A program made the translations under genes and the position numbers. The notes under the pieces are model-generated. The model did no database searches, was not told the origin of the DNA, and saw only the letters and a program-made list of their open reading frames with translations. This document shows, in pieces, positions 4,987-29,419 of a stretch of 64,000 nt of DNA (position 1 is its first letter; the number at the start of each line of letters is the position of its first letter). This stretch comes from an uncultured Eubacterium sp. (lineage in GTDB: Bacteria; Bacillota; Clostridia; Lachnospirales; Lachnospiraceae): contig CATLIX010000004.1 in the NCBI GenBank assembly GCA_949959185.1, positions 1 to 64,000 on the forward strand, in the 5' to 3' direction.

Positions 4987-4989
4987 ATG

Positions 4990-6804: not shown

Positions 6805-6912
6805 ATATGCACCTCCAGTTCCGTCCCGTATATTCTATCGGATTTTCCCCGTATTTACAAGTAACAATTCGGCCTGCGACTTCCCTGTTACAGAATCCGT
6901 CTGAATTCACAC

Positions 6913-6960: not shown

Positions 6961-6991
6961 CGTTTACATTTTTCATCTTTTCCGGAATTTC

Positions 6992-7020
6992 TTGTCACCA
7001 GACCGTTTATCATGTATAAT
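6992..7020 (+). promoter_or_regulatory. Sigma-70-type promoter for the small gene at 7065
   Basis: TTGTCA (6992-6997) and TATAAT (7015-7020) are separated by 17 bases. The first gene downstream starts at 7065, giving a leader of about 37 bases with AGGAG. Confidence 0.75.
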
Positions 7021-7064
7021 ACATCAAAAGGGACTATAACCATACATTGAGGAGAGTGATTTTC

Positions 7065-7325: not shown

Positions 7326-7385
7326 CGTAAAGAAGCCCCTGTGCAGCCCGCACAGCACCTGTGATATTCGTTATCGGAATCAGTA

Positions 7386-7706: not shown

Positions 7707-7723
7707 TGATTTTTCTCCTTCTC

Positions 7724-10624: not shown

Positions 10625-10627
10625 GGC

Positions 10628-11002: not shown

Positions 11003-11027
11003 ATCATTCTGTCCTTTCTCTTTCGTT

Positions 11028-14170: not shown

Positions 14171-14185
14171 CGTACAGAGTAAAAC

Positions 14186-14222
14186 GTCCGGTTTCCCTGA
14201 GGTTGAGGGAACCGGACATTTT
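14186..14222 (+). terminator. Terminator after the HAD gene
   Basis: A 12-bp stem, GTCCGGTTTCCCT against AGGGAACCGGAC, with a short loop and a following T-rich stretch, ends 50 bases after the stop codon. Confidence 0.85.
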
Positions 14223-14435
14223 ACCCTGATGTATACAATGGAATGTATCCGCAGGTTCTTTTCTTAAGGCATGGTTTTCTTTTCCAGGGGAGGGTGTAAA
14301 TATTTCTGTGTCTATGGAGGAAAAATCCTTCCGATAAAAATTGGTAGTGTAAATAAGTTTGTGTTTTTGGAAATAAATGGCTCCCTTTTGGTAAGAATCA
14401 GGATATGCAAATTCTTATCGAAAAGGAGTGTTTTT

Positions 14436-15650
14436 ATGCCAGTAGCAAAGGAACAGATTCGACAGATTATCTCAGAAAACAACTTAAACAGCGTCACCGA
14501 TGTCTATGCCCTCCTCAGGGACAGTTTTAAGGACATTCTACAGGAACTGATGGAGGCTGAGTTGGATGCGGCCCTCGGCTATGAGAAAAACAACAGGGGA
14601 GACTTGCAGACGGACAACAAACGCAATGGGCATTCCCCCAAAAACCTCAAGAGCCAGTATGGAGAATTCCAGATTGACGTGCCCAGGGACCGGAATGGGG
14701 AGTTTGAGCCGAAGCTGATACCGAAATACCAGCGGGACATCTCGGGGATTGAAGAAAAGGTGATTTCCCTGTATGCTCGCGGGATGAGCACCCGGGATAT
14801 CCATGACCAGCTGAATGACCTGTATGGGATCGAATTATCAGCGGAGATGGTCAGCAGGATTACAGATAAGATTCTTCCACAGGTCAGGGAGTGACAGTCC
14901 CGCCCCCTGAACCCGGTATACCCATTTGTATTCATGGACTGCATCCACTACAAAGTCCGGGAGGATGGGCGGATACTAAGCCGTGCAGCCTATGTTGTGC
15001 CGGGCGTGACGACTGAAGGCTACAAGGAGATCCTGAGCATTACCGTCGGGGCAAACGAGACCGGCAGGTTCTGGCTGGGGATGCTGAACGACCTGCACAA
15101 CCGGGGCGTGAAGGACGTGCTGTTTTTCTGCGTGGACGGACTGCCGGGGTTCAAAGAGGCCATACAGGCGGTATTTCCAAAGGCAGAGATACAGCGATGC
15201 GTCATCCACATGCTGCGCAACTCGTTCAAATACGTCAGTTACAAAGACCTGAAAAGATTCGCCTCCGACTTCAAGGCGACCTACAATGCCCCAAACGAGG
15301 CGGCGGCCTGTGCAGAACTGGAAAACGTGAAAGAAACATGGGGGAAGAAATACCCCTACGCCGTCAGCAGCTGGGAGAACAACTGGGAAGACGTCAGCCC
15401 CTTCTTTCAGTTCCCGGATGAAATCCGCCGGATTATGTATACCACCAACATCATAGAGGGGCTGAACCGCCAGTACCGGAAAGTGACCAGGACAAAGAGC
15501 GTGTTCCCCAGCGACGCGTCCCTGGAGAAGATGCTATATCTGGCAAGCCGGAATGTCACGAAGAAATGGACGCAGAGATATCGGAACTGGGACCAGGTCC
15601 TGAACCAGCTGACAGTCCTGTACGGAGAGCGCCTCACGCAATACCTGTAA
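14436..15650 (+). pseudogene. IS256-family transposase, split by an in-frame UGA
   Basis: The ATG at 14436 (AAAGGAG upstream) opens a mutator-type transposase. The frame reads to a TGA at 14892-14894 and then continues in the same frame to 15650. Without the stop the protein would have 404 residues, a normal length. The stop replaces a Trp codon (context E-stop-QSRPLNPVYPFVFMD), one base change from TGG. Catalytic residues are present after the stop: Asp in FVFMDCIHYK, Asp in CVDGLPGFKEA and Glu in NIIEGLNRQYRK. Without read-through, all three catalytic acids are lost, so the element is probably inactive unless supplied in trans. Confidence 0.9.
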
Positions 15651-15658
15651 AAAAAACC

Positions 15659-15691
15659 GGGATGGCAATATTTGGAAACACCTGCCATCCC
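15659..15691 (+). terminator. Terminator-like hairpin after the transposase
   Basis: GGGATGGCA pairs with TGCCATCCC around a 15-base loop, directly after the transposase stop and a run of A. Confidence 0.6.
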
Positions 15692-15960
15692 AGCCTTATT
15701 CCATCGGCATTGATAGTATTGCCAGAAAATCCCAGTCTTATTCCGGAGGCCGGGTGTGGGCAGAGCCCACGAAAGTGGCAGTCAAATACAATGCCTGTTT
15801 GCCATACAAAAAATCAGAAAAAATGTATAGAATCCGCCAGACTGGTTATACTATAAATAGAAGAAATAATTCGACAGCCCTAAAAACACAAAACCGACAA
15901 AATACTCTTACATATCTAATTCTTATCAGGAAAGTCTAAAGTTCATAGACACAAGATTTT

Positions 15961-16143
15961 TTACAGCCTCTCAAGAGCCAGCCTGCGTATTTTTGCGATC
16001 CGGTAATAATAACTTTTTAAAGAGACGTTATTCTGTTCGCACCATGCCTGGTTTGTCAGGCCGGAGGCCCTGCATTGCCGGATCACATCGAGCCAGTACT
16101 GAAATTTTACCTGCTTATCCGGAGTTAAAGTGGAAATGTCCAT
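15961..16143 (-). pseudogene. IS66-type accessory gene (TnpA-like), truncated by the IS256 element
   Basis: The product MDISTLTPDKQVKFQYWLD...ASGLTNQAWCEQNNVS matches the small N-terminal accessory protein of IS66 elements (helix-turn-helix, about 100-130 residues). It reaches only 60 residues here: the last codons and the stop come from the right inverted repeat of the IS256 element. The ATG at 16143 follows AAAGGAG. The tnpB and tnpC genes that should follow are absent from the other side of the IS256 element, so the rest of the IS66 was deleted. Confidence 0.8.
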
Positions 16144-16257
16144 GAATATTCTCCTTTATCCAGATTTAGAGTTTTGGGAGTGGACTCTAAAAACTCTAAC
16201 CCTAAGTTTACAGGAGAACGCCATATGTTTCACTACACGTTCTTATTTGACGCTTAC
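15969..16257 (-). mobile_element. Remnant of an IS66-family element (one end only)
   Basis: Read on the minus strand the remnant begins GTAAGCGTCAAATAAGAACG at 16257, the GTAAGCG start typical of IS66 termini, then a leader and the truncated accessory gene. The opposite end is missing. It marks the left boundary of the AT-rich island. Confidence 0.65.
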
Positions 16258-16303
16258 ACTATATCTGTCTGGCATCTTTATATTTCCATTTTCTATTCAT
16301 ATC

Positions 16304-17044
16304 TTAAAATTTATCTTGATTTTTCTTAGTCAGAGTTTCTATTCTCTTTTGACGTTCCAATTTACATATTACATCAGTTACCCGACTGTATACATCAAGA
16401 AAATCAGGTTTATTTTTTATACCCTTCATTTTATTATAAGCTTCACCCAACCTGGCAATCTGAGTTTTAAATGCTTCAAAATCCCCCAATTTCCTACCTG
16501 TCTCGGTCCATATTTGATGCAGTTCATCTATATCAATTTTTGTAATAAAAGACATCACATAAATATCCAATACATCCTTCATTCTTCTACATACACTCTC
16601 TCCTGAAATTGCATATAATTTGTCAGACAGCATTTTGGATAAACTTGCTCCTGTAATGGATATTCCATTCACATAGGAAATGTAAGGTCTGCTAAATCGG
16701 TTCTGCCTGACGCTTAAATCAATACTTGCGATCTTTTCTCCAATTTCATTGATAATTTTAAAACCGGCAGATTTTCTTTCAGCGAATGTTCTGTTGGCCT
16801 GGACATCTAAGGAAGAATCCACTTCTTTAACCGCATTTCTCAATGCTATTTCCATTCCCTCCATAGTTGGAAATTCACCAATCCAGTCTCCATCTATATC
16901 TCTGGTCGCTCTTTCAACCTTTGATGGATTATTATCCCTGATTGCAAGATTAAGAACCATCGCCCCTTTGAACACAATCGGCACACCTGCATTTGACAGT
17001 TCTTCCATCACCCTGTATAAAAATTCCATTAAATCCAAACACAT
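16304..17044 (-). CDS. AbiEii/AbiGii-type nucleotidyltransferase toxin
   Basis: The 246-residue product has the DNA polymerase beta-like nucleotidyltransferase pattern of the AbiEii family: FKGAMVLNLAI (Lys26-Gly27) and RATRDIDGDW (Asp49, Asp51), followed by SIDLSVRQ and a helical C-terminal half with RRMKDVLDIYVM. AbiEii toxins of type IV systems, where studied (for example MenT), modify tRNA or use GTP; the substrate here is not visible. The ATG at 17044 was chosen over a GTG at 17047. The antitoxin stop lies 3 bases upstream, so translation is coupled. Type IV pairs abort phage infection or stabilise mobile DNA. Confidence 0.88.
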   Translation of the reverse strand: MCLDLMEFLYRVMEELSNAGVPIVFKGAMVLNLAIRDNNPSKVERATRDIDGDWIGEFPTMEGMEIALRNAVKEVDSSLDVQANRTFAERKSAGFKIINEIGEKIASIDLSVRQNRFSRPYISYVNGISITGASLSKMLSDKLYAISGESVCRRMKDVLDIYVMSFITKIDIDELHQIWTETGRKLGDFEAFKTQIARLGEAYNKMKGIKNKPDFLDVYSRVTDVICKLERQKRIETLTKKNQDKF

Positions 17045-17047
17045 CAC

Positions 17048-17458
17048 CTACTCTTCATAATATTCAAGCGCCCATACCTTATATTTTTCAAATCTCTTTT
17101 TCAAATGCGCTGGCATTTCAAGTCCATCAAAACTCTCATTGTGTGCATCATAATAATTTGCCAAACTCTCCGTGATAATCTGCTCATCTCCATTTTGCTC
17201 TAAAAGGTCAATGATAGTCTGATTTACAGTAGTGCATAATAGTCCGTTTCGTTTTTCACACACAAGGGTCTCAAGAGATGGCACCAAAATCTGTTCCGCC
17301 CCATCTATATCTTGCTTTTTATCGACAAATATCTGTGCTGCCGATCTACATCCGCCATTTGTCAGACCCAAAAAATCCGCCGCCGTGTCAAAGGCAAGTA
17401 CACATTCCACATCTGCTAATAAATTTCTTAGCTGGTCATTGTATGTGAAAACTGCCAT
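17048..17458 (-). CDS. AbiEi-like antitoxin of a type IV toxin-antitoxin pair
   Basis: The 136-residue protein directly precedes the AbiEii-like gene. The middle part resembles the C-terminal domain of AbiEi antitoxins (SLETLVCEKRNGLLCTTVNQTIIDLLEQNGDEQIITESLANYYD); the N-terminal winged helix usual for AbiEi repressors is not obvious, so this may be a short variant. It could neutralise the toxin and repress the promoter. The ATG at 17458 follows GGGAGAGGAG. The HD gene of the cassette ends only 45 bases upstream with no terminator between, so the pair may be read from the cassette promoter. Confidence 0.7.
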   Translation of the reverse strand: MAVFTYNDQLRNLLADVECVLAFDTAADFLGLTNGGCRSAAQIFVDKKQDIDGAEQILVPSLETLVCEKRNGLLCTTVNQTIIDLLEQNGDEQIITESLANYYDAHNESFDGLEMPAHLKKRFEKYKVWALEYYEE

Positions 17459-17503
17459 TTATGCTCTCTCCTCTCCCATTAATTGTGTCATCTATTACTA
17501 TTC

Positions 17504-19081
17504 TTACATCTCCAGAAACTTCCATAAAGAATAAATCTCTCCTAAATATTGTTCTGTGAATTCTCTTGCTGCACAAGCATATTTTACTGTATTCCGCTCT
17601 ATTTTTTCTCCATACTCTTTCGTTCTTCTCTTATCATCACATATGTTTATGAATTCTTTCAAATTAGTTCCATTTTTCTGGCTATCCATCCATTTGTCAA
17701 TATCAGCGGCATTCATTTTAGATTGATCCTGCATCTCTTTTATAATTTCAACCGGGTTATTGGAAAGAAAATAATGCAGTTCCATATCTGGCAAATAACT
17801 TTGAAATTGAATCATATTTTCGATATCTTTTAATCCCTTCTCACGGTATATCACCGCTTCATAATCACTCAATAACAGCTCTAAAAGCCTATAACAATCA
17901 TATTGAAGATATATATGAATTTTATGTCCATCCTCCTTTAATCGCATACTATTGCATATATCAATATAGCTCATTTTCTTATTTCCCATCTGCGTAATTT
18001 TTTGAAACTGTTTCCCACAACTACATTGATAAAGACTGTTATCATCCTCTGCCGGCCGAATAATCTTCCCACATGCAGCACATCTAAGAAAATTATGCTT
18101 TTCTTCTATGCATACCAAAAACCTCTGCCATTCCTGTAAGTCGTCACACAGCCGCAAAAAATAAGAAAATGGATCTTGGCTGAAAAGCATCCTATCATTT
18201 TTATGATAATAATTTGTATGTTTATATATCGAAACTGCTGCCATTTCTATAATACACTGTTTCCTGTCATCCAGACTGTATATGCTGCCAGAAAAATAAA
18301 AATTCATTAAAAAGCTAATTGCAGACAGACAGCCATGATCATTCTTTTCATATTTCTTTCTTATTTCATCATGTGCCACCGTCTGAAACAACCAACTATT
18401 ATTCAGTAATGCCTTGATTTCTGCAAAAACTGTCTTGACAGCAGGGTTTGCAATTTTAAAAAATGGCGCGAACTGATGTATTTCATCTGCCATCCGAAAA
18501 TAATAAGCAAGCGGATAACCAATATCATGAAATAGCGCACTAACCAGAAAACTTTTGTAAATAATTTCTTTCAGCATCTTCCGTTTGTTTTCCTCGGACT
18601 CTGCTGTTATCGCTGGCAGAATAAAATAAGCATACTCATTGTTTTTGTCCATAACGCAGTCTGCAATGCAGTCGTCAAAATGAAAATCTTTCAAAAGCAA
18701 AAGTCCCAGATAAGCATTGCGGAACTGATGCTTGTAATGTTCCCGTATTCTTTTGGGCGCTCCTTCCGAAGAATGTTCCAGAAAAATACCATTTTCAATT
18801 GCTGCATAATTATTAACCAGTAAATGCTCCATACCTTTAATCCCTACAAATCTGGTAAGAATTTCATATACATTTTCAATCAGGTATACCTCTTTGGCTG
18901 CCTCTTCTTTATTATAAATTACTTGAAGGCTTTTATAAATTTTGGAGATTCCCTCTCTCGTCATCTGACACATCGGAAACTCTTCCACTTTATCCGGCTG
19001 TTCTGAAAACTCTGCAAAGATATCTTTCGCTTCTCTCTGGAAAAATTCATACATCTTTTCATCATTTAATTTTCTTTCCAT
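17504..19081 (-). CDS. HD-domain phosphohydrolase with internal zinc ribbon (cassette gene 5)
   Basis: The 525-residue protein carries an HD-type metal site spread over residues 115-315: EHYKHQF (His115/118), SALFHDIGYP (His185-Asp186), NDHG (Asp248-His249), YKHTNYYH (His288) and LRLCDDLQEW (Asp313-314). A zinc-ribbon motif follows, CAAC (334-337) and CSC (353-355). The last 150 residues are helical and unassigned. HD enzymes cleave phosphate esters such as (c)NMPs, dNTPs or (p)ppGpp; here the partner genes and the AT-rich setting suggest an effector, which is inference. It lies 30 bases after the ParA-like gene. The ATG at 19081 has AGAGGA upstream. Confidence 0.8.
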   Translation of the reverse strand: MERKLNDEKMYEFFQREAKDIFAEFSEQPDKVEEFPMCQMTREGISKIYKSLQVIYNKEEAAKEVYLIENVYEILTRFVGIKGMEHLLVNNYAAIENGIFLEHSSEGAPKRIREHYKHQFRNAYLGLLLLKDFHFDDCIADCVMDKNNEYAYFILPAITAESEENKRKMLKEIIYKSFLVSALFHDIGYPLAYYFRMADEIHQFAPFFKIANPAVKTVFAEIKALLNNSWLFQTVAHDEIRKKYEKNDHGCLSAISFLMNFYFSGSIYSLDDRKQCIIEMAAVSIYKHTNYYHKNDRMLFSQDPFSYFLRLCDDLQEWQRFLVCIEEKHNFLRCAACGKIIRPAEDDNSLYQCSCGKQFQKITQMGNKKMSYIDICNSMRLKEDGHKIHIYLQYDCYRLLELLLSDYEAVIYREKGLKDIENMIQFQSYLPDMELHYFLSNNPVEIIKEMQDQSKMNAADIDKWMDSQKNGTNLKEFINICDDKRRTKEYGEKIERNTVKYACAAREFTEQYLGEIYSLWKFLEM

Positions 19082-19111
19082 TCCGCATCCTCTCTACAAT
19101 CCATCTGCTTT

Positions 19112-19999
19112 TTACTTATAGGAATAATATTCTTCCCTATATTCCTGCGGCAATATAAATGCGTCAATATTATCAATCAGCTTCTTCTGATATCCAATCA
19201 TGCTGGCATTTACCTGATCTGACACAAATTCTTTATAGCGTATTTTCATAAATTTTTTGTCTTTTAAATCTTTTAAAATATTCTCTGCGTCTTTTTTCCA
19301 ATTAAATTTATGGTCGTCATAATCTTTTGAAATAAATTCCCAATTATGTAAGTCGTTTAATACAATGCTGACATTCCTATCCCCTCTTTTTAAAAAATCT
19401 TTAGCATCATTCAGGCATTCCACTGTTTTGCGTATTTGGGAAGCATCGAATGTAGTAACATAAAGTTCCTCAATTTCTGATATTTCTCCATTTTGGCGCA
19501 TATTGTAGAATTCATTTAACAAAAACCGTTCCATATCTGTTAACCCTGGAGAACAATCTATCACAAACAGATTATTAATTTCGCAAGATATACACTTTTT
19601 CAGAAAAGAAAGCAAATCCTGTAAAAAAATAGAACCACTGATATCTGAATGCTGCCAGAAACGTCCGCGAACATCATAATCCTGCCTTCGGTTCGCAACC
19701 GGATTAAGAAGAACCGCATACAAAACGGTGCCCTTATCTTTGTCTTCTAATATCTTATTGCATACTCTCTCATAATAACGCTCCTCATATTCGTCAAAAT
19801 ACTTCGGTTTTATTTCATCTGGAAATAATGCATAAGACATGCTTGTACCCAATCTGTCAATATCAATAAAAAAAATATTTTTATAGAATTTGTTCTGTGT
19901 GCAGTTATGCACACAATTTGCCAGCGCCACAGAAGTTTTTCCTGTTCCCCCTTTAAATGAATTTACCATAATAATCTTATTATCTGTATTTTTACCCAT
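19112..19999 (-). CDS. ParA/MinD-type P-loop ATPase (cassette gene 4)
   Basis: The 295-residue product has the deviant Walker A SFKGGTGKTS (Lys16, Lys21), a Walker A' aspartate in FFIDIDRLGTSMSY and Walker B LFVIDCSPG. It belongs to the SIMIBI class, which dimerise on ATP and act as spatial or assembly switches. No ParB gene is near, so plasmid or chromosome segregation is unlikely. The ATG at 19999 overlaps the stop of the preceding gene by 8 bases and has GGAGG upstream, so translation is coupled. Its presence beside an HD protein and a DptF-like ATPase is not an arrangement I can match to a named system. Confidence 0.85.
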   Translation of the reverse strand: MGKNTDNKIIMVNSFKGGTGKTSVALANCVHNCTQNKFYKNIFFIDIDRLGTSMSYALFPDEIKPKYFDEYEERYYERVCNKILEDKDKGTVLYAVLLNPVANRRQDYDVRGRFWQHSDISGSIFLQDLLSFLKKCISCEINNLFVIDCSPGLTDMERFLLNEFYNMRQNGEISEIEELYVTTFDASQIRKTVECLNDAKDFLKRGDRNVSIVLNDLHNWEFISKDYDDHKFNWKKDAENILKDLKDKKFMKIRYKEFVSDQVNASMIGYQKKLIDNIDAFILPQEYREEYYSYK

Positions 20000-22892
20000 T
20001 ATTTTCCTCCAATTTTGTATATAACTTCTGCATTTTTCTTATTGTATTCTCATCCAGCAAATGTATCCTCTGATCTGCGCAAATGCATTGGCGAAGTATC
20101 TCTATATTGTACAAATCAGATTCTGAAAATGTACGGACAGCATATTCATCAATGTCGTTTCGCTCTCTGATAAATTCCAGCATCTTTTGAAACTGCATAA
20201 TTGCCGCAATATCTGCCGGGCTTGGCTTTTGTGGTTTTCCCTCTGCTTCTTCATAGTCCAACTGATATTTTGCGATTTCTGTCCTTTGCATATAATCCAG
20301 CATTAGCGCTGTTGGAATATTATCCGTTTCCTCATATAGCATCATCAGAAACTTTCTCTTGAACGTCTTGCTTTTATTTAAAAGCAAAAGTATATCTTCT
20401 ATCAGCTTCCTATAATGATTCTCCCGCTCTGCATCCTCTTCCTGGTTATTTATAAAAAGCCTGCATTTCAAACAAATACTCTTGTTATGACAGGAAATCG
20501 TCAGATAAGGTATTTCTGATGTCTCGCCTTTGTCAGATAAAATACATGTTATATCATCTAATCCTGACACCTTCTCTAAAAACGGCTTTAAAAACACTTC
20601 CACAGAAGCTTCCCCGTCTTCTTTTAACAGCTTACGCTGACAACCCGCATGAAAATTCACTAATAGCATTTCCTGGCCTGACAAAATGCTGTGGTGCATC
20701 TGGAATTCTGACAAATGATACATATGCTGCATCAACTGCGGATTCGAAGAAAGAAGCACGACTGTACGATGTGAATCCGCGCTTATCTTCTGACGTATCT
20801 GATTTAATACAGACTGGTTTAATTCTTTTGTATCCCAAAATGCCAGTTTTACATCCTGGTTTAATTCCATATAGTGCATACTGTCCCATAAAATTTCCAG
20901 CACCTGAACTTGTTTTTCATCAAACATTTTCCCTACTTCAAACTGCTCAAAATCAAGCATCAGACGGTTGGGCTGATTGCGCCATTCCTTCAGTTTTGGT
21001 TTCTGGTACAGAATACTGCTATCTGCTAAAAAAAGGAGATCCGCATCGCAAATCATATGTTCGATATCATATTCCTGCCCATTGCTATACATTTCTTTCG
21101 TAAAACGGAATAGCACCTGAGGATATTCCACATCCATTTCCATATTTTCCTGCAATTGTTTTTTTAATTCTTCCTCTTTGTCACTGACGATATTCAGAAT
21201 CACTTTATGTATCATGCTTTTTTCAGATTCCGCAAATCCCTTCAGCTTTCTTGTCATAGACATAATTTCACTAATATCATTGATGCCTACAATTGTTACA
21301 TATACTTCAGATAAATATTTTTGACGCTCCATATAATCCAGCAAATCCTCATTCAAAAGGCGGATATTTATCCACGAACCTGCTGTATGTTCCCTTGTTT
21401 TCTCGAATATAATCTCCTGATTCATATTTTGAATACTGCTATAGTCAAGCTGATACAATTCTTCCTGTAACAACAAATAACAGACGGGAAACTCCATCAC
21501 TTCCCTGCGGATCATCGCCCTGACTGTCTGTTCCCAGAATTCTCCTGCCTGAACAGCCAGTAATTCTCTGAATTCCTCATACTTTCTTTGCAATGAAATG
21601 AAATAATATCCCGCCAATGGATGATAAAAGGGCATCGAAATTTTACCATTTTCTTCTTTACAAAAGATCCTTTGCAAACGGCTTAGAAAATCCATGCCAA
21701 GGCACATCCGGGCTATTCCTTTATCCGATACACATCTTCCCATTAAAGCAAAATAGCATCTGACCAATTCTTCCTGACTCTTTGCGTAATGCCATAAATA
21801 AACTGGCGTATACTTACTGCCCTCTTCCTTTGCTTTCAAAAACAATTGCTGCAATTCTCCAAGTTTTTCCCGCAAAAACACTCTTTTTTCTTCCGTAAGA
21901 CTCAGCAATTCCATTAATTCTCTGATTGTCTGAAACTCTGTTTCTATTTCCTGTTTCTCTGGATAAGAATATTTTTGCCTGCTGGCTGACAGTATTTCTT
22001 CCTCTTGCTTTACCCCTGAAAGGTTTTTTTCCACCTGCTGCATAGGTTCCTGCAAAAGTTCCTGCATTGCATATTCGTAAGAATTTTCATAATATTGATC
22101 CTCCTGCTTTTCCTGCGGCAAATCTTTGCGTTTTCTCCCGCCTCCTTTGAACAATTGTTCTATCTTTTCATCATATGGAACATTTTTAAATACACTTTTC
22201 AAGTCATTCTTTGACAGCCACTTCATAATATTCTGCCGGATTTCTACTGGAAATTCTACTTTTTTTTCTGTAATGCCTCCCATCAATTTTGTCTCTGCCA
22301 GTAAGGGATCTGAATTCCGTATTAATTTTTTTAAGTATTGCTTTTTCTTTGCTTTAGCTAAATACTTATCTAAATCCTTTGCATTGTCAGACTTTATACT
22401 CCACAGATCTAACTTATACAGCTTTTGAACTATTTTTGAAAATTTGAAATTTCCAGATTTATCAATACAGGAATCCAGATATACAAATAAGTCTTCCAAA
22501 ACTATCTGTCTTGATTCCATAATGGTTTCCAGCACTTTTTTACAGTCATTATCCGGTTCCTGTCCAAATGCGGCTGTCAGACAATGCCAGAATATGTCCC
22601 TGTCTTCTGGTATCGCAGGATATTCCACAAAATCTTTCAGCGAATCAATCATCCTGACACTGTCATTGGAAAACAACACAATTCTTGACACATTTATGTC
22701 ATTACGCAAAACCACCGCCTGTGAATACTCTTTCCTTTCAAACCATGCCATCGCGTAATCAGCTTCCTGTTTTAAAAATCCATCTACCAGGTTTTTTTCA
22801 ATGTCTACAATAGCAATAAAATATTCCTTCCGACCTTTTGTCAGTAATTCAATATAGGCCCGCATATACCTGACAAATTTCCCTTCTATCAT
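19992..22892 (-). CDS. Large protein of unknown family (cassette gene 3)
   Basis: The 966-residue protein is not recognised. Visible parts: an N-terminal domain with VVLRNDINVSRIVLFSND then SVRMIDSLKDFVEYP; a charged linker with Gln/Glu-rich stretches (about 240-320); a long helical middle; a segment ICDADLLFLADSSILY followed by LMLDFEQFEV; and a C-terminal alpha/beta part (TVVLLSSNPQL, ILSDKGETSEIPYLTISCHN). No P-loop, signal peptide or membrane helix is seen. A longer open frame begins at 22964, but the ATG at 22892 overlaps the stop of gene 2 as ATGA, so it is the likely start. DptH-like proteins occupy a similar place in dptFGH loci but are larger and carry an ATPase; the relation is a guess. 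Confidence 0.75.
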   Translation of the reverse strand: MIEGKFVRYMRAYIELLTKGRKEYFIAIVDIEKNLVDGFLKQEADYAMAWFERKEYSQAVVLRNDINVSRIVLFSNDSVRMIDSLKDFVEYPAIPEDRDIFWHCLTAAFGQEPDNDCKKVLETIMESRQIVLEDLFVYLDSCIDKSGNFKFSKIVQKLYKLDLWSIKSDNAKDLDKYLAKAKKKQYLKKLIRNSDPLLAETKLMGGITEKKVEFPVEIRQNIMKWLSKNDLKSVFKNVPYDEKIEQLFKGGGRKRKDLPQEKQEDQYYENSYEYAMQELLQEPMQQVEKNLSGVKQEEEILSASRQKYSYPEKQEIETEFQTIRELMELLSLTEEKRVFLREKLGELQQLFLKAKEEGSKYTPVYLWHYAKSQEELVRCYFALMGRCVSDKGIARMCLGMDFLSRLQRIFCKEENGKISMPFYHPLAGYYFISLQRKYEEFRELLAVQAGEFWEQTVRAMIRREVMEFPVCYLLLQEELYQLDYSSIQNMNQEIIFEKTREHTAGSWINIRLLNEDLLDYMERQKYLSEVYVTIVGINDISEIMSMTRKLKGFAESEKSMIHKVILNIVSDKEEELKKQLQENMEMDVEYPQVLFRFTKEMYSNGQEYDIEHMICDADLLFLADSSILYQKPKLKEWRNQPNRLMLDFEQFEVGKMFDEKQVQVLEILWDSMHYMELNQDVKLAFWDTKELNQSVLNQIRQKISADSHRTVVLLSSNPQLMQHMYHLSEFQMHHSILSGQEMLLVNFHAGCQRKLLKEDGEASVEVFLKPFLEKVSGLDDITCILSDKGETSEIPYLTISCHNKSICLKCRLFINNQEEDAERENHYRKLIEDILLLLNKSKTFKRKFLMMLYEETDNIPTALMLDYMQRTEIAKYQLDYEEAEGKPQKPSPADIAAIMQFQKMLEFIRERNDIDEYAVRTFSESDLYNIEILRQCICADQRIHLLDENTIRKMQKLYTKLEENNG

Positions 22893-24388
22893 AAAAGCGT
22901 AAATTCCCCTTTCTCCTCTGGAAGTGTAACCACATATCCGCTGTCTGAAAGCCGAATCAGGCAATTAATTTCATCCAGATTATCAATCAAAGCCTGCTCA
23001 TTCTGCCTGAATTCCTGAAACGGAACTTTCATATGCATTTTTTTTAACATCTTATCCATCTGATCATTCTTCTGAATACAAATCCCATATTTTTCCTGCA
23101 AAGAATCCAAAAAATTATCCAAATACGCGTACGTACTCTCTTCCTTTGCAAGATACAGCCTTACCAGAAATTCCAACAGGGACGGAGACAACGCAAAATA
23201 TTTATGTCTGGAACGGGTCTTGGGAAATACAAATTCAATATCCTTTCCGCATGTATTAAGCGCCGAGGAAATTTTACTCAAAGCAGAACCTTTTCTGGCC
23301 TTGCTCATATCAATATAGCACATCACAAATTCTTCTGCCGAATACGGTTTTTCTTTTACCCCATCTAACGCAAACACTTTCCGAATAGACGGATACAGGG
23401 ATGGTTTCGCATCCAGCTTAAAGTTGGAATTAAATACCTGCCTCACAAATTGTATCATTTCTTTTTTTCCATTTTTTCCTATTACAAAAATTTCATCATC
23501 TGAATTCTCAACCACAATATCCTGATCGTCCACCTGTTCCTCTTTCAAACATTTAATATAAAATTCTTTCAACTCTGTTTGGAACACAAAACGGATTTCC
23601 GAATAATTCTGTACACAAGCAAGGTGGTAGGCCTCGCCGTTGGATAAATGGCTGGAACCCTGACACAGCACATATCCCCGATTTGAAGTAATCGCTTTCT
23701 TATTTATAACAAATTGGATTACATAAAAATCCAACAATGTAGCCAGATAATCATATCGTTTATAAAAATCCAGATTTCGGAAAAATCTATGTTTCAACAG
23801 CTTGTATAAATCTTCCCTGAAATTCTTTCGGACATTCCTGAAATTACCTGATTTCAGCATATCAAGTTCGTAATTTCTTTTTTCTTCCCTTTTCCAGTCA
23901 TCTCCGCCAAAATATTTCTCACAAATAGTGCTCATAAGATAACTCACCCCGTCTGCGCCACCGTACAGATACTCAAATAGTAAATTTTGCACTTCGCAGA
24001 AAACTTCCTCTTTCTCAATCCCCGGTATCATACAATAAAGGAGATGCCGCAGATTATATGAGGCGCTGCGCAGCATTTGCGGCTTCAATGGGAAATAATG
24101 ATGGCTATTTTCACTAAACGAAATCATATCTTCTCCGGAAAACCGCTGAAAAAAATAATTAAACGACTCTTCCAGCTGTTTCTTCTTTTGCTCATCATCT
24201 TCTTCGCATATAAGGATTTTTTTATCAAAAAAATCTTTATATCTATACTGTTGTTCCTTTCCCCGCTTATCCTCCAGAAAAAATTCTGACAGAAAATTGT
24301 TAACTAACAAATATCTTGGCGTCTCTGGTCCCGAAATACCTATATAGGAAGCAAGTTCCCTCTCATTTACTTTATCGCCTGTGCCCAT
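22889..24388 (-). CDS. Protein of unknown family (cassette gene 2)
   Basis: The 499-residue soluble protein is not recognised. It is rich in aromatic and charged residues, has an N-terminal part with RYLLVNNFLSEFFLED, a middle with DDEIFVIGKNGKKEMIQFVR, and a C-terminal part FALSPSLLEFLVRLYLA then LDSLQEKYGICI that looks like a winged-helix domain. No catalytic motif is evident. It starts 2 bases after the stop of gene 1 (ATG 24388, with AGAGGG upstream; a TTG at 24394 overlaps that stop and is an alternative) and overlaps gene 3 by ATGA. Strict coupling with both neighbours argues for a stoichiometric subunit of one complex. Confidence 0.75.
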   Translation of the reverse strand: MGTGDKVNERELASYIGISGPETPRYLLVNNFLSEFFLEDKRGKEQQYRYKDFFDKKILICEEDDEQKKKQLEESFNYFFQRFSGEDMISFSENSHHYFPLKPQMLRSASYNLRHLLYCMIPGIEKEEVFCEVQNLLFEYLYGGADGVSYLMSTICEKYFGGDDWKREEKRNYELDMLKSGNFRNVRKNFREDLYKLLKHRFFRNLDFYKRYDYLATLLDFYVIQFVINKKAITSNRGYVLCQGSSHLSNGEAYHLACVQNYSEIRFVFQTELKEFYIKCLKEEQVDDQDIVVENSDDEIFVIGKNGKKEMIQFVRQVFNSNFKLDAKPSLYPSIRKVFALDGVKEKPYSAEEFVMCYIDMSKARKGSALSKISSALNTCGKDIEFVFPKTRSRHKYFALSPSLLEFLVRLYLAKEESTYAYLDNFLDSLQEKYGICIQKNDQMDKMLKKMHMKVPFQEFRQNEQALIDNLDEINCLIRLSDSGYVVTLPEEKGEFTLL

Positions 24389-24390
24389 AG

Positions 24391-25941
24391 TCAACCCTCT
24401 TTTCTTATTTTAACCACTGTACTCTGTCCTTTCAAAAAATGATTTAAATGTTGGACACTCAATGAAAAATTGCACAATTCCTTCTGTCCCTGATCGTTAA
24501 ATCTGACATGCATCCTTTCATAAGCGCCATTTTTTTTCTTCAAAATTTTCTGGTAAAATGAATTAATCCGGTATTCTTCCAATGACTTGCTATTATGGCT
24601 CAAATAATAGTAACCGTCTGCCATCATTAAATAACGGAACAATTTGTAATCTACCACAAGCGTAATCGCGTCAATTTTTTCATCTTCCTGAAATACATAA
24701 CTGATGGAAAAACGATTTTGTTTCTCCGGCTTATGTGTTTCCATATCTAAATTTCCAAAATCCAGGCCATACCTGTGCCAAATCATGTCTATATTGCCAA
24801 GTTCAAATTCTGTCTGGATATCATCTCCAAACATCACCGGCGTATCCGCCACTTTCATGGCAATGTCGCTCTGCCCACGCCTTGTCAATCTTCCAAGGCC
24901 GCGCTTTAAGTAATAAAGCTCCTTGCTTTGGATCTCTGCCGAATCAATGAACGGCGTTCCCTGAAAAAAAGAAATAACATTTTGAAATTCCGTCAAATAA
25001 TCTACTGCAAGCAGTTCATAAGGATTCTCTTTGCCATAAAAAAATCGTTTTCTCTTTTCCCTTCGGCATTCTTCCACTGAATTATATTTTAAGCCATCGT
25101 CTTTTGAGTTTTTAAACGCAGGATCCATACGGCTTATATTTAAAAGCACTTTATCCAAATGTTCTCCTTGATTAAAAACAGCATCTACAAAAAAATCTTC
25201 TGGCTTTTCCCTTTCTCCGCGTTCTCTGCAGCTATCACCAAATGTCACCATATAAGCCAACAACGACAACAATTCCCGGAATGTTACATGCTCTCCTATC
25301 AAACAGATTGCGTCACATATAATTCGCACACTTTCCATTCCTCTTTCTGACAACAGATAAGTTAGATTTTCCTGAAACGCACACTTTCCACAACACACAC
25401 ATTCCCTGTCTTCGCATGGTTTTCCGTCATAAGATAAAAAATCCTGCACAATTTTTTGAAATATCTCTTTATCCCGTGCAAGATTTCTTTTCTCAAAGTT
25501 TATAATTTTCACTCTCTCATTCTTCTGGGTAAGTTTTTCCATCAAAGATCGTTGATACTTAATCACACATTTTGTAAATATACCCACATTGGCTGCAATA
25601 ATAATTCGCTCTTTTGTTTTGCCATCAATAATATCAGCAATTCTTTTCAATATTCTCTCTTTTTCCGTCTCTGGCTCAGCTGAAAAATCCATATACGGCT
25701 CGCAAAATCCGTATTCATCCAATTTTTTTCGCAGTGCCCGGATTAGCCGGGATTTTCCATCTCCGGCTTCTCCTGTCAGCAAAATAAATTGCAATTTATC
25801 AAGATGCAAAAGAATATCCTCTTCTTCTGGCAACGTAACTTGAAATCCCCCATCTGCTCTGCGTTCATCCATCATATTCACATGTCCTTGATATACAGAA
25901 CAGTATTTTAATAAGTCGTCGATTTTTTCTGAAATATTCAT
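24391..25941 (-). CDS. DptF-like P-loop ATPase (cassette gene 1)
   Basis: The 516-residue product has Walker A LLTGEAGDGKSRLIRAL (about 54-70), a following RIIIAANVGIF strand, the stretch KIINFEKRNLA, a Cys cluster CEDRECVCCGKC (about 176-187) and then HVTFRELLSLLAYMVTFG. The order P-loop, Cys cluster, RELL helix is like that of DptF, the ATPase of phosphorothioation-dependent restriction, but overall similarity cannot be judged here and no dnd/dpt modification gene is in the window. It is the first gene of the cassette. The ATG at 25941 has AAGGTG 6 bases upstream; a GTG at 25950 has none. Confidence 0.75.
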   Translation of the reverse strand: MNISEKIDDLLKYCSVYQGHVNMMDERRADGGFQVTLPEEEDILLHLDKLQFILLTGEAGDGKSRLIRALRKKLDEYGFCEPYMDFSAEPETEKERILKRIADIIDGKTKERIIIAANVGIFTKCVIKYQRSLMEKLTQKNERVKIINFEKRNLARDKEIFQKIVQDFLSYDGKPCEDRECVCCGKCAFQENLTYLLSERGMESVRIICDAICLIGEHVTFRELLSLLAYMVTFGDSCRERGEREKPEDFFVDAVFNQGEHLDKVLLNISRMDPAFKNSKDDGLKYNSVEECRREKRKRFFYGKENPYELLAVDYLTEFQNVISFFQGTPFIDSAEIQSKELYYLKRGLGRLTRRGQSDIAMKVADTPVMFGDDIQTEFELGNIDMIWHRYGLDFGNLDMETHKPEKQNRFSISYVFQEDEKIDAITLVVDYKLFRYLMMADGYYYLSHNSKSLEEYRINSFYQKILKKKNGAYERMHVRFNDQGQKELCNFSLSVQHLNHFLKGQSTVVKIRKEG

Positions 25942-25973
25942 ACTTTTCACCTTTACCTGGTATTTTAGCTATA

Positions 25974-26002
25974 ATTATATTCCATTCTTATTTTTCTGTA
26001 AA
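25974..26002 (-). promoter_or_regulatory. Promoter of the five-gene cassette
   Basis: On the minus strand TTTACA (25997-26002) and TATAAT (25974-25979) are spaced by exactly 17 bases. The leader to the ATG at 25941 would be about 26 bases with a ribosome binding site. No second promoter of this quality was seen inside the cassette, consistent with one transcript. Confidence 0.8.
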
Positions 26003-26020
26003 GGAAATTAATCCTATCAT

Positions 26021-26042
26021 CAATTTACCAAATTGTAAATTG
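26021..26042. promoter_or_regulatory. Inverted repeat upstream of the cassette promoter, possible operator
   Basis: CAATTTAC and GTAAATTG are perfect 8-base arms around a 6-base spacer, ending 19 bases upstream of the -35 box. The position fits an activator or repressor site. No regulator gene is present in the cassette itself. Confidence 0.5.
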
Positions 26043-26085
26043 AGCAAATGCGATAAAAACAGTTTTTAGCCTGGCAAACTGTCCC

Positions 26086-26307
26086 TCAGACAGAGAACTC
26101 CCAGCCCACCCGCGGATTCGGATGGATACACGTCAAACCCTGGAAGCGACCTGTCCCCTCTCGCCTTAAGTAAGCCTCCACCTTCTCCCCATGCCTGTAG
26201 AGATTAGTAATGGATTTTCTCATTGGAACCCAACGCTTTGAAGTGGTTCCGTCATGATGACAGACCTTTTTGCAGACTTTAAATTCCTTTGGGTCGTTAA
26301 TTGTCAT
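26086..26307 (-). CDS. Small hypothetical protein of the island edge
   Basis: This 73-residue open frame is basic and Cys/His-rich near its start (KVCKKVCHHDGTTSKRW) and ends HPNPRVGWEFSV. I do not recognise it. The start has no good ribosome binding site, and the surrounding 26043-26650 region shows no other coding signal, so it may be a fragment of a lost gene of the island. Confidence 0.35.
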   Translation of the reverse strand: MTINDPKEFKVCKKVCHHDGTTSKRWVPMRKSITNLYRHGEKVEAYLRREGTGRFQGLTCIHPNPRVGWEFSV

Positions 26308-26660
26308 CTCAATACGCAGGCTGCTGAATTAATTTACCATACATCTTAATACTGATAGACTTCATTTTGAATTTGATTCTCCAGCCAATCGGAGGTTTGC
26401 AATAATCGTAGACTGCTTCTCCCGTAAATTTTAGAACGGAACGTGCCACAACCAGATATCATTATATACGGCAGAAGGCAGGATTAGAAAAATAAAAGTA
26501 ATTTTTAGCCGGAAGACAATCTGGCTTTCCATTGACCAAATGACAGAACTATTTCAAAGGAATAATAATGTAACAAAAAACACATAAGAAATATTTTTAA
26601 GGAAAGAGAGTTGATATGGGAAGCAGTTTAGGCAAAATCTGCCTGTACTATTCCCATATA
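26308..26660. other. Non-coding AT-rich stretch
   Basis: I see no open frame with a ribosome binding site, no RNA gene and no clear repeat here. It separates the island from the core-type genes and probably contains the right island boundary; no direct repeat matching the left side was found by eye. Confidence 0.4.
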
Positions 26661-26701
26661 AAAAGCCGGAAATTCCGCTGTTTTTACGTCTTTCCGGCTT
26701 T
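26661..26701 (-). terminator. Terminator after the small membrane protein gene
   Basis: AAAGCCGGAAA pairs with TTTCCGGCTTT across an 18-base loop; on the minus strand a T-run follows the stem. Confidence 0.75.
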
Positions 26702-26753
26702 GATTCACTGCTCCATTTTCTTCCTTCACCCGGCATTTTTTCTTATACGCTGC

Positions 26754-26988: not shown

Positions 26989-27849
26989 TCAGTTCAACCC
27001 CCGGAAGCCTTTCCCGATAATCTCACTGCTGTTGGTAATCATCATAAATGCGTCCGGCTGATTCCATTTAATGTAATTTCTGAGCTGAACTGCCTGACCC
27101 CTTTTCATAACTGTCAGAATCACATATTTTCTGTTATGGGTATACGTCCCCTCTGCCTGAAAAATCGTGGCGCTCCGCACAAGCTCTTCATGAATAAAAT
27201 CGCAGATAGGTTCCGGGTCGTCGCAGACAATGGTAAAATACTTGCACAGATTGATATTCTCAATGGTGGTATCAATTACCAGGGATTTTGCCATCAGTCC
27301 GCAGAAAGAAAACAGGCCGGTCTGGGCGTCAAATATAAAGCAGGCTGCCACGGTAATCATCAAATCCACCAGGAACAGAGCTGTCCCGATGTTGACGGTA
27401 CTGTGCTTTTTCAGCACCATGGCTATAATGTCCGTACCGCCGCCGCTGGCCCCGATATTAAATAAAATAGCGGAACTTAACGCCGGAAGGATAATGGCAA
27501 ATATCAGTTCCAGTACCGGCTCATTCGTCATGGGGCGTGCCATGGGAAAATATTTCTCCAGCCCGCTCAGTCCCAGAGAAATCAGAATGCTCACATAAAC
27601 GGTCCTGATGCCGAATTCACGTCCCAGCGCGACGAAGCCCACCACCAGCAGCGCCATATTGATGACAAAATTTATGGTGCCTGCACTGAGGGGCGTCACT
27701 GCGCTGAAAATAACCGCCATACCGGTGACTCCGCCAAAAGAAAAATTATTGGGGAATTTAAAAAAATGCACTCCCACCACCAGCAAAATTGCTGCGACTG
27801 TAATCATTGTATATTCAAATAACGCCAGCTTTACCTTATGTTGTTCCAT
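26989..27849 (-). CDS. YitT family membrane protein (DUF161/DUF2179)
   Basis: The 286-residue protein has five or six membrane segments with glycine-rich signatures (FGGVTGMAVIFS, GASGGGTDIIAMVLKKHS) and a cytoplasmic C-terminal DUF2179 domain that starts near residue 205 (CKYFTIVCDDPEPICDFI... GTYTHNRKYVILTVMKRGQ). Many Firmicutes carry several YitT proteins; a transport role is suspected but not proven. The ATG at 27849 has GAGGT upstream. The lipoprotein gene lies 36 bases upstream on the same strand. Confidence 0.93.
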   Translation of the reverse strand: MEQHKVKLALFEYTMITVAAILLVVGVHFFKFPNNFSFGGVTGMAVIFSAVTPLSAGTINFVINMALLVVGFVALGREFGIRTVYVSILISLGLSGLEKYFPMARPMTNEPVLELIFAIILPALSSAILFNIGASGGGTDIIAMVLKKHSTVNIGTALFLVDLMITVAACFIFDAQTGLFSFCGLMAKSLVIDTTIENINLCKYFTIVCDDPEPICDFIHEELVRSATIFQAEGTYTHNRKYVILTVMKRGQAVQLRNYIKWNQPDAFMMITNSSEIIGKGFRGLN

Positions 27850-27885: not shown

Positions 27886-29193
27886 CTATTCCCCGTCTGT
27901 CTCTGGTTCCGGTGTCTCTCCGTCTGTCTCCGCTTCCGGCGTCTCTCCGTTTGTTTCATTTTCCGAAGTTTCATCTTCTGTTTCTGGTTCCGGTGTCTCT
28001 CCGTCCGCCTCAGTGTCTTCTGTATCCTCGTCCATCATTTCTTCCTCTTCCTGATAATATTCTTCCTGGGAAACTTCTTCCAGGTTTGCATTTTCACAGA
28101 GGAAATTTACCACTTTTTCCCGCACAATCTGCGTAATAATGCCGGCTTTTCCATAATCCGCTTCAAATTCTTCCACAGATTCATATTCATATTCTTCCGC
28201 CAGGGCTTTTGCTTCTTCCTGATAGCTGTCTTCTGTCACTGCAAGTCCTTCCTGGTCCGCAATGGCCTGAACCACAAGATACTCATTTGTCTGAGCTTCG
28301 GTTGCTTCTTCTACTGCACCTTCTCCCATTTCATCCAGAAATTCATCATATTCCATGCCCATCAGAGATGCATAAAACTGGTAGCCCTCCACGGTCTCAT
28401 TATAAAAGAAATCATACAGCGCCTGAGGATAGCCTTCCACTTTTGCATTTTCCACAGCCAGTACAAGGGCGTCCTCACCTGCCGCCGAATCAGATTCCTC
28501 CTGAGCAGAAATCATTAAATCTGCATTTAAGTATTCCTCATATTCCGCTGTGGTATTATAATCTGAGACTTTTTTCACAAACTCATCATTGTATTCCGGA
28601 ACAATGACTTCGCTGATTGTATTGATGGTCACCGTAAATTCCGCAGTCTTCCCGTTCAGCTCCGTATCCATTTCATTGTAATCCTCCGGAAAGGTTACCG
28701 GAAATGTAAATGCTTCTCCGGCATTTTTATCAACCAGATTTTTTTCAAACTCTTCCAGGAATTCTCCGGAGCCTATGACCAGATCAAAATCCTCTCCGGT
28801 TCCGCCGTCAAATGCTTCTCCGTCTATCACTCCGGTAAAATCAATATTGACGCTGTCCCCTTCCTGAGCCGCCCGATCTTTGATTTCCTTATACTCCGTA
28901 TTTTCTTCCACCAGCTGCTGAATGGAAAATTCCACATCATCCCCGGACACCTCCGGTATGGGATACTTCACGTTCAGCCCTTTATACTCTCCCAGTTTCA
29001 CATAATCTTCCGCTTTAAAATCCAGCACATCTTCCCCGGCTGTCTCTCCGGCGTCGTCTGATTCTTCTGTTTTTTCATCTTCTGTCTTCCTGGAAGCGCT
29101 GTCTTCCTGATTCTTTTTGCTGTTTCCGCAGCCGGTAAACACTGCCATTCCCAATAACAGCAGCAACGCTGCCAGATAACTTCTTTTTTTCAT
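27886..29193 (-). CDS. Trigger factor/FKBP-type peptidyl-prolyl isomerase lipoprotein
   Basis: The 435-residue protein begins with a lipoprotein signal, MKKRSYLAALLLLLGMAVFTGCG (lipid-anchored Cys22). An FKBP domain follows (EGDSVNIDFTGVIDGEAFDGGTGEDFDLVIGSG and LNGKTAEFTVTI), then a helical domain like the trigger factor C-terminus (about 210-370). It should help fold exported proteins on the outer face of the membrane, like PrsA. The last about 50 residues are an acidic tail of repeated GETPEPETD/GETPEAETD units, probably unstructured. The ATG at 29193 was chosen for the GGAGG 5 bases upstream. Confidence 0.92.
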   Translation of the reverse strand: MKKRSYLAALLLLLGMAVFTGCGNSKKNQEDSASRKTEDEKTEESDDAGETAGEDVLDFKAEDYVKLGEYKGLNVKYPIPEVSGDDVEFSIQQLVEENTEYKEIKDRAAQEGDSVNIDFTGVIDGEAFDGGTGEDFDLVIGSGEFLEEFEKNLVDKNAGEAFTFPVTFPEDYNEMDTELNGKTAEFTVTINTISEVIVPEYNDEFVKKVSDYNTTAEYEEYLNADLMISAQEESDSAAGEDALVLAVENAKVEGYPQALYDFFYNETVEGYQFYASLMGMEYDEFLDEMGEGAVEEATEAQTNEYLVVQAIADQEGLAVTEDSYQEEAKALAEEYEYESVEEFEADYGKAGIITQIVREKVVNFLCENANLEEVSQEEYYQEEEEMMDEDTEDTEADGETPEPETEDETSENETNGETPEAETDGETPEPETDGE

Positions 29194-29419
29194 ACTTTCC
29201 TCCATTTTTCTGCCTGTTCCGCAAAGGTTTCCTATTACAACAACGCTATTTTAACACAAGATTTTGAAAAAATCATGAAAATTGTAATTTTTTTGAAGAA
29301 TTGAAAACAGCAAATCGTTCCTGGAGGTGTTAAGCGTACTTCCTGGTCAGCCGGTAACCAGACATGCAAAGGATTGATCTGTGAACAGAATGTGGACAAA
29401 ATGAAACGGATATCCAATA

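Follow-up and report, generated by a model that had tools for sequence, protein, structure and literature searches.

The five-gene cassette and its surroundings

In the window examined here--that is, the whole 64,000-nucleotide stretch of DNA that was analysed--five open reading frames (ORFs) of 516, 501, 966, 295 and 525 aa follow one another on the minus strand from 25941 to 17504 (Table 1). Genes 2 and 3 overlap by 4 bases, genes 3 and 4 overlap by 8 bases, and 30 bases lie between genes 4 and 5; the most likely start of gene 2 is the ATG at 24388, 2 bases past the stop of gene 1, a longer reading being possible from the TTG at 24394. The GC content of the cassette is 36.3%, as against 48.8% for positions 1-13000 and 47.7% for positions 27001-64000. 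The reading of ORFs and composition bears out a preliminary description of this DNA, which had reported closely packed genes on one strand with a base composition unlike that of the flanks, a promoter in front of them, and an AbiE-type pair and IS elements (pieces of an IS256-type transposase) adjoining. The promoter-like site, TTTACA-17-TATAAT (26002-25974), ranks best among 51 promoter-like matches in 11 kb; by itself it proves little, because 36.6 such matches are expected by chance. That the five genes form one operon, and that this operon is intact, is well supported.

Table 1. Features in and around the five-gene cassette
Feature	Position	Strand	Evidence
Gene 1: DptF/SspF-type P-loop protein, 516 aa	24391..25941	-	SspF models, hhalign, invariant residues
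Gene 2: DptG/SspG/MAD7-type protein, 499-501 aa	22889..24388	-	SspG and MAD7 models, hhalign
Gene 3: most likely a DptH/SspH-like core without REase and HerA/FtsK, 966 aa	19992..22892	-	hhalign, N-terminal motif
Gene 4: ParA/MinD-type ATPase, 295 aa (KGGTGKT, DCSPG)	19112..19999	-	Family models, motifs
Gene 5: probable HD-type metal-dependent phosphohydrolase with C2C2 zinc ribbon, 525 aa	17504..19081	-	Invariant residues
Promoter-like site TTTACA-17-TATAAT	25974..26002	-	11/12 positions; the first ATG follows after about 30 bases
AbiEi-like antitoxin (passenger)	17048..17458	-	PADLOC AbiEi, E 4e-4
AbiEii-like nucleotidyltransferase toxin (passenger)	16304..17047	-	Pfam AbiEii, E 1.7e-8, 35.1 bits (cut-off 22.5)
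IS256/Mutator-type transposase, two pieces	14271..15650	+	PF00872, E 1e-38 and 5e-68
Island missing from the orthologous site in same-genus genome L054	14171..26753		Empty-site comparison

Recurrence of the gene order in a patchy, mobile cassette

This set of five genes, with its order unchanged--recurrence of that order next to known defence genes had been proposed as a check--is found at six further loci, one of them cut by a contig end, to give seven loci in all. The arrangement is not due to chance, because this order is kept at the six other loci, and its conservation at seven loci rules out a collection of five unrelated genes. Identity to the further cassettes falls to 19-32%, the flanks differ between loci, and four of the seven have mobile, toxin-antitoxin or defence genes in the neighbourhood. 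The AbiE pair is missing beside the other six cassettes within the stretches examined; it is thus a passenger outside the conserved core, and a core enlarged by this pair to seven genes can be ruled out. Nor is the cassette a core locus in all relatives, since the orthologous chromosomal site lacks it in six of the seven genomes of the genus that could be tested. Purifying selection acts on each of the five genes (dN/dS 0.06-0.14). L008 and L069 are decayed copies, the former retaining genes 1 and 2 and a truncated gene 3 and missing genes 4 and 5.

Matches to gene 3 occur in 4 of 397 genomes of the family, a count that takes in one chance match (G150), and in 4 of 391 genomes of the class, a count that takes in two weak matches (G519 and G703). 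Gene 5 is matched in 5 of 29 genomes of the genus (one match being a remnant), in 1 of 320 genomes of the order (the cassette's own genome), and in 5 of 398 genomes of the phylum, where two weak matches (G1140 and G1143) are included. G150 was rejected as a carrier: its 1203-aa ORF has, by eye, a helicase-like start, and no cassette gene was found. Another genome (G787, locus L022) encodes a stand-alone gene 5 relative, and nothing else from the cassette was found within the 19 kb examined. Gene 3 found no match in phages, plasmids or viral contigs; two distant gene 5 proteins found none among plasmids, the gene 5 protein of locus L014 none among phages, and the gene 5 alignment none among viral contigs. 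With gene 1 of locus L021 as query, three haloarchaeal plasmids were matched and no phage. The cassette is mobile and patchy in its distribution, and is found in gut bacteria.

Assignment of the five proteins

Gene 1 is related to DptF and SspF, and gene 2 to DptG, SspG and MAD7. The DptF-like character that had been proposed for gene 1 is upheld by SspF models, which match all seven homologues (best E 9e-23), and by hhalign comparison with DptF (E 4e-13) and with a haloarchaeal F protein (E 7e-13). The protein has an intact Walker A motif (GEAGDGKS), an Asn in place of the usual Walker B Asp (AANVGIF) and a Cys cluster (C176/C181/C187), and the patterns GxAGDGK[ST] and A[AG]NxGxF recur in all six full-length gene 1 proteins checked. 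An intact Walker A with Asn replacing the Walker B Asp is the rule given for DndF-type P-loop proteins in PMC10853773, and gene 1 shares these features, together with a Cys insert, with the F proteins of DndFGH and DptFGH. Gene 2, which like gene 3 had been left without an assignment, matches SspG (E 1.3e-8), and its C-terminus aligns to SspG/DptG-type proteins (hhalign E 1e-4 to 9e-4); the similarity sits in this C-terminal domain, the G component of DptFGH/DndFGH being defined as a DndG-type triple winged-helix protein. Gene 2 also resembles MAD7 of the MADS system (E 1.5e-7), but at 30.9 and 34 bits, far from the equivalog cut-off of 410, and family searches recognised no methylase or kinase gene in the cassette. 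Among PDB sequence profiles neither gene 1 nor gene 2 has a convincing relative.

Gene 3 matches no PADLOC, Pfam or NCBIfam family and has no convincing relative among PDB sequence profiles. The H core was defined as that of DndH: an SF2-like N-terminal domain, HTH, beta-sandwiches, TRD and an inactive methylase. Residues 369-570 of gene 3 align to DptH 612-800 with an hhalign score of 38.0, which none of 200 shuffles reached (the maxima being 24.3 for 100 column-shuffled and 29.9 for 100 block-shuffled controls), and against ten H sequences the score is 40.2; the hhalign probability is 6-10%, weak by ordinary standards. The score of an N-terminal block against H was attained by 3 of 200 shuffles, and the C-terminal part found no match. 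A signal above the shuffled level comes only from comparison of multi-sequence profiles: hhalign found nothing when the aligned gene 3 proteins were compared with one H protein, that of L026, and the sole match from HMMER searches that used portions of gene 3 as queries was a weak one, to the H protein of L030 (sequence E 0.0027, domain E 0.052), while shuffled decoys of another gene 3 part attained a sequence E of 0.011.

A motif near the N-terminus (RN..SLKDF) is also seen in Ssp-type H proteins; as the pattern RN..S[LM][KA]DF, composed after inspection of the sequences that carry it, it is present in 16 gene 3 ORFs, in 5 ORFs for Ssp-type H proteins and in none of the remaining 511 ORFs scanned. 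It is missing from all six Dnd-type H proteins. The predicted structure is of low confidence (pLDDT 64.7, pTM 0.38), and Foldseek returned nothing at E <= 0.001. Of the 50 Foldseek matches listed, 17 are chance matches to GPCRs and 30, among them those at the head of the listing, we take to be Rossmann methyltransferase-type folds. Such matches are as expected, because DndH contains an inactive methylase according to PMC10853773.

What gene 3 lacks is the other half of H. A Walker A motif is present in none of seven gene 3 proteins and in all eight H proteins, in agreement with the earlier remark that gene 3 has no P-loop, and no site corresponding to the REase D..ExK is found in the seven proteins, which stop before the REase region; the D..ExK pattern itself detects the expected site in five of eight H proteins. 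(The gene 3 protein of L021 has one unrelated match to this pattern, at residue 289.) Gene 3 has 966 aa as against about 1700 for the H of DndFGH and DptFGH, with REase and HerA/FtsK missing. The absence of a P-loop had been read as setting the cassette apart from dptFGH; it is no argument against kinship, because the C-terminal half has most likely been lost. Most likely, though at modest confidence, gene 3 is a DptH derivative shorn of its nuclease and translocase. The same missing half, along with the decayed copies L008 and L069, would fit a DptFGH operon in decay, its H truncated and non-functional, a reading largely refuted by conservation: gene 3 is similarly shortened at all seven loci (961-1042 aa), always beside genes 4 and 5, and the dN/dS values cover all five genes.

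Gene 4 is ParA-like, as had been supposed: AAA_31 and CbiA models match all six homologues scanned (best E 8e-10 and 1e-6), the motifs, including the deviant Walker A KGGxGK[ST], are present in seven of seven, and PDB sequence profiles return ParA-type entries. A ParA-type ATPase on a mobile island might suggest not defence but a ParA-driven module for the stability or partition of some mobile element. This is very improbable: family searching, the one means used, finds no ParB-like gene in the cassette, which is chromosomal and occupies differing sites; genes 1 and 2 are kin to antiphage SspF and SspG; and the gene 3 and gene 5 queries returned no plasmid record.

For gene 5 the proposed HD assignment holds at the level of residues. 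Invariant in seven homologues are H115, H118, H185-D186, H249, H288 and D313-D314, as are the zinc-ribbon cysteines C334, C337, C353 and C355; the H...HD...D ligand set (H118, H185-D186, H249, H288 and D313) is retained even in the stand-alone relative. No HD family, Pfam, NCBIfam or PDB profile matches. An HD fold is thus probable, with modest confidence founded on the invariant residues, and judging from such motifs the catalytic sites of genes 1, 4 and 5 are intact. The AF2 model of gene 5 (pLDDT 79.5) gave weak Foldseek matches, the best to GppA at E 0.32, and nothing at E <= 0.001 in a viral structure library. Nine of the 50 matches listed are presumably HD-type (PDE and GppA/PPX), all at E >= 0.32.

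These phosphohydrolase matches bear on whether the HD protein might instead be a nuclease, which ParA would load along the invader following detection by the same sensing core, so that the parts would differ from those of DptFGH and the principle would not. HD nucleases are known in CRISPR effectors, and the zinc ribbon of gene 5 could bind nucleic acid. According to PMC8092258, DptFGH and SspFGH act through DNA damage. Against this stand the PDE and GppA/PPX matches and a sequence that gives no sign of nuclease over nucleotidase activity; the nuclease reading is rather unlikely.

A possible counter-invader system with an exchanged output

The five-gene order matches no named system in the family libraries searched, and no description of it was found in the literature searched, in keeping with the earlier failure to name one. 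Among the nearest known systems is SspFGH, which operates with SspBCD (PMC8092258): the F-G-H order is the same, genes 1 and 2 correspond to SspF and SspG, and the N-terminal motif is common to gene 3, the H protein of L026 and those of three haloarchaeal plasmids. The F-G-H operons of these plasmids (L071-L073) encode an F protein of 519 aa and G proteins of 498-500 aa, near the lengths of genes 1 and 2, but their third gene is annotated as a DNA translocase FtsK of 1522-1535 aa, DruA or DUF4338 genes adjoin, and no ParA or HD gene is annotated beside them. DndFGH and DptFGH likewise have a G-type protein and an H whose middle region part of gene 3 weakly resembles, and lack the two extra genes.

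No phosphorothioation gene was seen beside the cassettes in the stretches examined. A DndC model scores above its cut-off in none of six cassette-bearing genomes and below it in three; the cassette's own genome has four PAPS-reductase-type genes, a domain present in 14 of 14 controls. The absence of modification genes had been taken as a further contrast with dptFGH, yet it does not set the cassette apart, because DndFGH is commonly decoupled from modification, as stated in PMC10853773.

With a probability of roughly 60%, the cassette is a counter-invader system that works by itself and follows the DptFGH/SspFGH plan, its output having been swapped for a ParA-type ATPase and an HD enzyme. F, G and the shortened H, encoded by genes 1-3, would assemble into a complex that senses nucleotides and DNA and recognises the DNA of invaders. 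In canonical systems H uses its own nuclease and HerA/FtsK domain to cut and pump DNA; genes 4 and 5 would replace this missing half. The ParA-type ATPase may bind or spread on DNA when ATP-bound, serving as carrier, and the HD-type metal hydrolase would be the effector. Its substrates are most likely nucleotides, either dNTPs or a nucleotide signal, whose hydrolysis would stop either invader replication or the cell. We infer complex formation, activation by foreign DNA, the carrier role of ParA, the HD substrate and phage defence itself from kinship and gene content. For comparison, SspFGH suppresses phage DNA replication and requires all three genes (PMC8092258). The fuller proposal--a re-armed DptFGH/SspFGH branch whose nuclease and pump have been exchanged for a DNA-bound ParA-type ATPase and an HD nucleotide hydrolase, coupling foreign-DNA detection to nucleotide hydrolysis rather than cutting and needing no protective modification--is offered tentatively, at somewhat below even odds.

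Genes 4 and 5 might, alternatively, be regulators of a complex that binds the invader and blocks its replication or segregation, with the HD protein degrading a signal as an off-switch. PMC8092258 reports that unrestrained canonical FGH activity damages cells, which would make a brake useful in a system that lacks modification. This is nonetheless improbable: no nuclease was found in genes 1-4, which leaves gene 5 as the most evident output, and family searches recognise no cyclase or other signal-making gene in the cassette.

Under the preferred reading, that of an exchanged output, the set apparently retains, from a known anti-virus machine, the half that senses DNA, and joins it to an undescribed way of stopping invaders. 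Family searches overlook it, genes 3 and 5 of the window falling below every Pfam, PADLOC and NCBIfam cut-off. A relative without nuclease, pump or, apparently, linked modification would separate sensing from killing, allowing the sensing half to be tested alone, and bears on how canonical DptFGH spares its own host. More generally, the cassette points to a modular sensor, the F-G-H core, that may be joined to different outputs, and its ParA-HD pair would be a kind of effector that was seen in none of the named systems compared.

Recurrence and genomic setting of the cassette

The five reading frames proposed in the preliminary description are present at the positions claimed for them, all on the minus strand and separated from one another by -8 to +30 bases. 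Their base composition is indeed unlike that of the flanks (36.3% GC versus 48.8% and 47.7%), and in 7/7 loci the cassette is lower in GC than the rest of the stretch that holds it. The strong promoter placed in front of the cassette is a real promoter-like site, but one among many matches in AT-rich DNA. Beyond the cassette, a lipoprotein-like ORF at 27886-29205 carries, as judged by eye, an acidic repeat tail of the TEDETPEPETDGE type.

Positions of the five cassette genes within the window
Gene	Coordinates	Strand	Type
gene 1	25941-24391	minus	ORF
gene 2	24388 (or 24394)-22889	minus	ORF
gene 3	22892-19992	minus	ORF
gene 4	19999-19112	minus	ORF
gene 5	19081-17504	minus	ORF

The suggested check on whether this gene order recurs gave a positive answer: five of six further loci hold all five genes intact and in unchanged order, and in the sixth (L068) gene 1 is interrupted by a contig end. 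Loci L002 and L003, in records titled Eubacterium sp., were found by searching with gene 3 (L003 and genome G1167 being one and the same record), and L007, L014, L021 and L068 (in G223, G547, G817 and G1177, respectively) by genome searches. The carriers belong to the same genus as the window genome (G1167, G1177), the same family (G223), the same class (G547) and the same phylum (G817); identities to the window are lowest for L021, at 30, 27, 19, 23 and 31-32% for genes 1 to 5. A same-species genome has the cassette at 99.6% identity across 16 kb. Between the window and L003, dN/dS is 0.10, 0.06, 0.14, 0.10 and 0.11 for genes 1 to 5; between the window and L002, dS is saturated. Decayed copies also occur: L008 (G157) retains genes 1 and 2 and the initial 249 residues of gene 3, and L069 (G1159) only remnants of gene 5 (L069:6872-7380 and 14459-15607). 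The latter sit at the agr-like site where L003 has its cassette; an AAA-type fragment adjoins them and, a few kb away, there is an AbiE pair 90-93% identical to that of the window.

Occupancy of the site was followed using a YitT-type gene (26992-27849) and a GH42-type gene (11031-13049) as flank markers, which lie on a single contig in 7 of 28 other genomes of the genus. The cassette is absent between them in six of these seven, where they are 1.1-6.5 kb apart; the seventh, a same-species genome, carries it. Elsewhere in the genome, two of the six (G1167 and G1159) hold the cassette or a remnant. The stretch missing in G1162 corresponds to window 14171-26753, and in G1171 and G1168 the same gap is occupied by other small genes or by a 1626-aa ORF. 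Because this ORF (L055:2414-7294, in G1171) lies between the same two genes, the gap may be an insertion hot spot.

The AbiE-type pair and IS elements described previously do adjoin the window cassette, the latter as IS256-type pieces. Mobile or defence-type neighbours occur at four of seven loci: the window; L007, with a PD-T4-9_C-like gene (L007:797-1192, E 3e-8) and an adjoining GNAT-type gene; L021, with an integrase piece and an MNT-type gene that PDC-S09 matches (E 1e-11); and L014, where two integrase-type genes accompany an IS256-type transposase. Inspection by eye recognised no such genes at L002, L003 or L068. The IS256/Mutator-type transposase at window 14271-15650 consists of two ORFs in different frames, both also found in the same-species locus L053; there, an extra insertion of ~1.6 kb with a 520-aa ORF (L053:2078-3640) lies ~0.4 kb upstream of gene 1, between window positions 26326 and 26331.

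Kinship of genes 1 and 2, and probable kinship of gene 3, to F-G-H operons

The DptF-like assignment of gene 1 is borne out: SspF models match 7/7 homologues (best E 9e-23), and hhalign aligns it with DptF (E 4e-13), one SspF (2e-12) and haloarchaeal F (7e-13). It shares with DndF, as characterised in PMC10853773, an intact Walker A motif and an Asn replacing the Walker B Asp. Gene 2, previously listed as an unknown protein, matches SspG (E 1.3e-8), as do 3/7 homologues at E <= 0.01, and hhalign gives E 1e-4 to 9e-4 against DptG C-termini; its match to MAD7 is far under the cut-off.

No family model in Pfam, PADLOC or NCBIfam matched gene 3, and it was compared with H proteins from reference operons: L026 (found via the SspG model), the plasmids L027, L028, L031 and L032 (annotated dptF-dptG), L029 and L030. 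Over residues 369-570, gene 3 aligns to DptH columns 612-800 at an hhalign score of 38.0 (E 0.006), versus maxima of 24.3 and 29.9 among 100 column-shuffled and 100 block-shuffled controls; comparison with ten H sequences gives 40.2. Each of the two has an HPL motif, after which a Rossmann-like region is predicted. Against haloarchaeal H, the N-terminal block of gene 3 aligns at a score of 23.4, a value reached by 3/200 shuffles. Near residues 62-100, an RN-hydrophobic strand-S[LM][KA]DF motif is shared by 16 gene 3 and 5 Ssp-type H ORFs, and occurs in 0/511 other ORFs scanned and 0/6 Dnd-type H proteins; this pattern was composed after the sequences were seen, and the ORF counts include duplicates and fragments. 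The AF2 model of gene 3 is poor (pLDDT 64.7, pTM 0.38) and retrieved nothing at E <= 0.001 with Foldseek, the best match being HemK (8e-3). By description or background knowledge, the 50 matches listed comprise 30 Rossmann methyltransferase-type proteins, 17 GPCRs, which are helical chance matches, and 3 others; DndH contains an inactive methylase, according to PMC10853773. As first noted, gene 3 has no P-loop: Walker A is found in none of seven gene 3 proteins, versus 8/8 H proteins. Gene 3 is read, with a probability of roughly three in four, as a core derived from DptH that lacks the nuclease and the translocase.

Haloarchaeal plasmids (L071-L073) carry F-G-H operons, with F and G unnamed, adjoining DruA or DUF4338 genes; a large helicase also lies next to these operons. 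Their H is of the FtsK type, unlike gene 3, which lacks Walker A. For the five-gene combination no description was found in the open-licence literature searched, and the terms HD domain, MinD and SIMIBI occur nowhere in the main text of PMC10853773.

Genes 4 and 5 and a possible mechanism

Gene 4 is ParA-like, as proposed, with KGGxGK[ST] and DCxPG in 7/7 proteins and matches to AAA_31 and CbiA in 6/6 scanned. For gene 5, the proposed HD phosphohydrolase identity agrees with residues invariant in 7/7 (H115, H118, H185-D186, D248-H249, H288, D313-D314 and four Cys). Its AF2 model is of fair quality (pLDDT 79.5, pTM 0.82), but the Foldseek matches are weak (GppA first, E 0.32; 9/50 HD-type by description or background knowledge) and no profile in Pfam, NCBIfam or the PDB libraries matched; for these reasons an HD-type fold is regarded as probable, not proven. 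A stand-alone 624-aa relative (G787, L022:9044-10918) keeps the His/Asp metal-ligand set and has an extra N-terminal region; no cassette surrounds it in the 19 kb read.

SspFGH damages DNA lacking the modification and suppresses the replication of phage DNA, and none of its three genes is dispensable (PMC8092258); for DndFGH, a stand-alone role in which DNA and nucleotides are sensed has been proposed (PMC10853773). By analogy, genes 1-3 would act as the sensor. Since Pfam, PADLOC and NCBIfam searches gave no nuclease match in genes 1-4, the likeliest output of the cassette would be gene 5, and its likeliest link to DNA gene 4.
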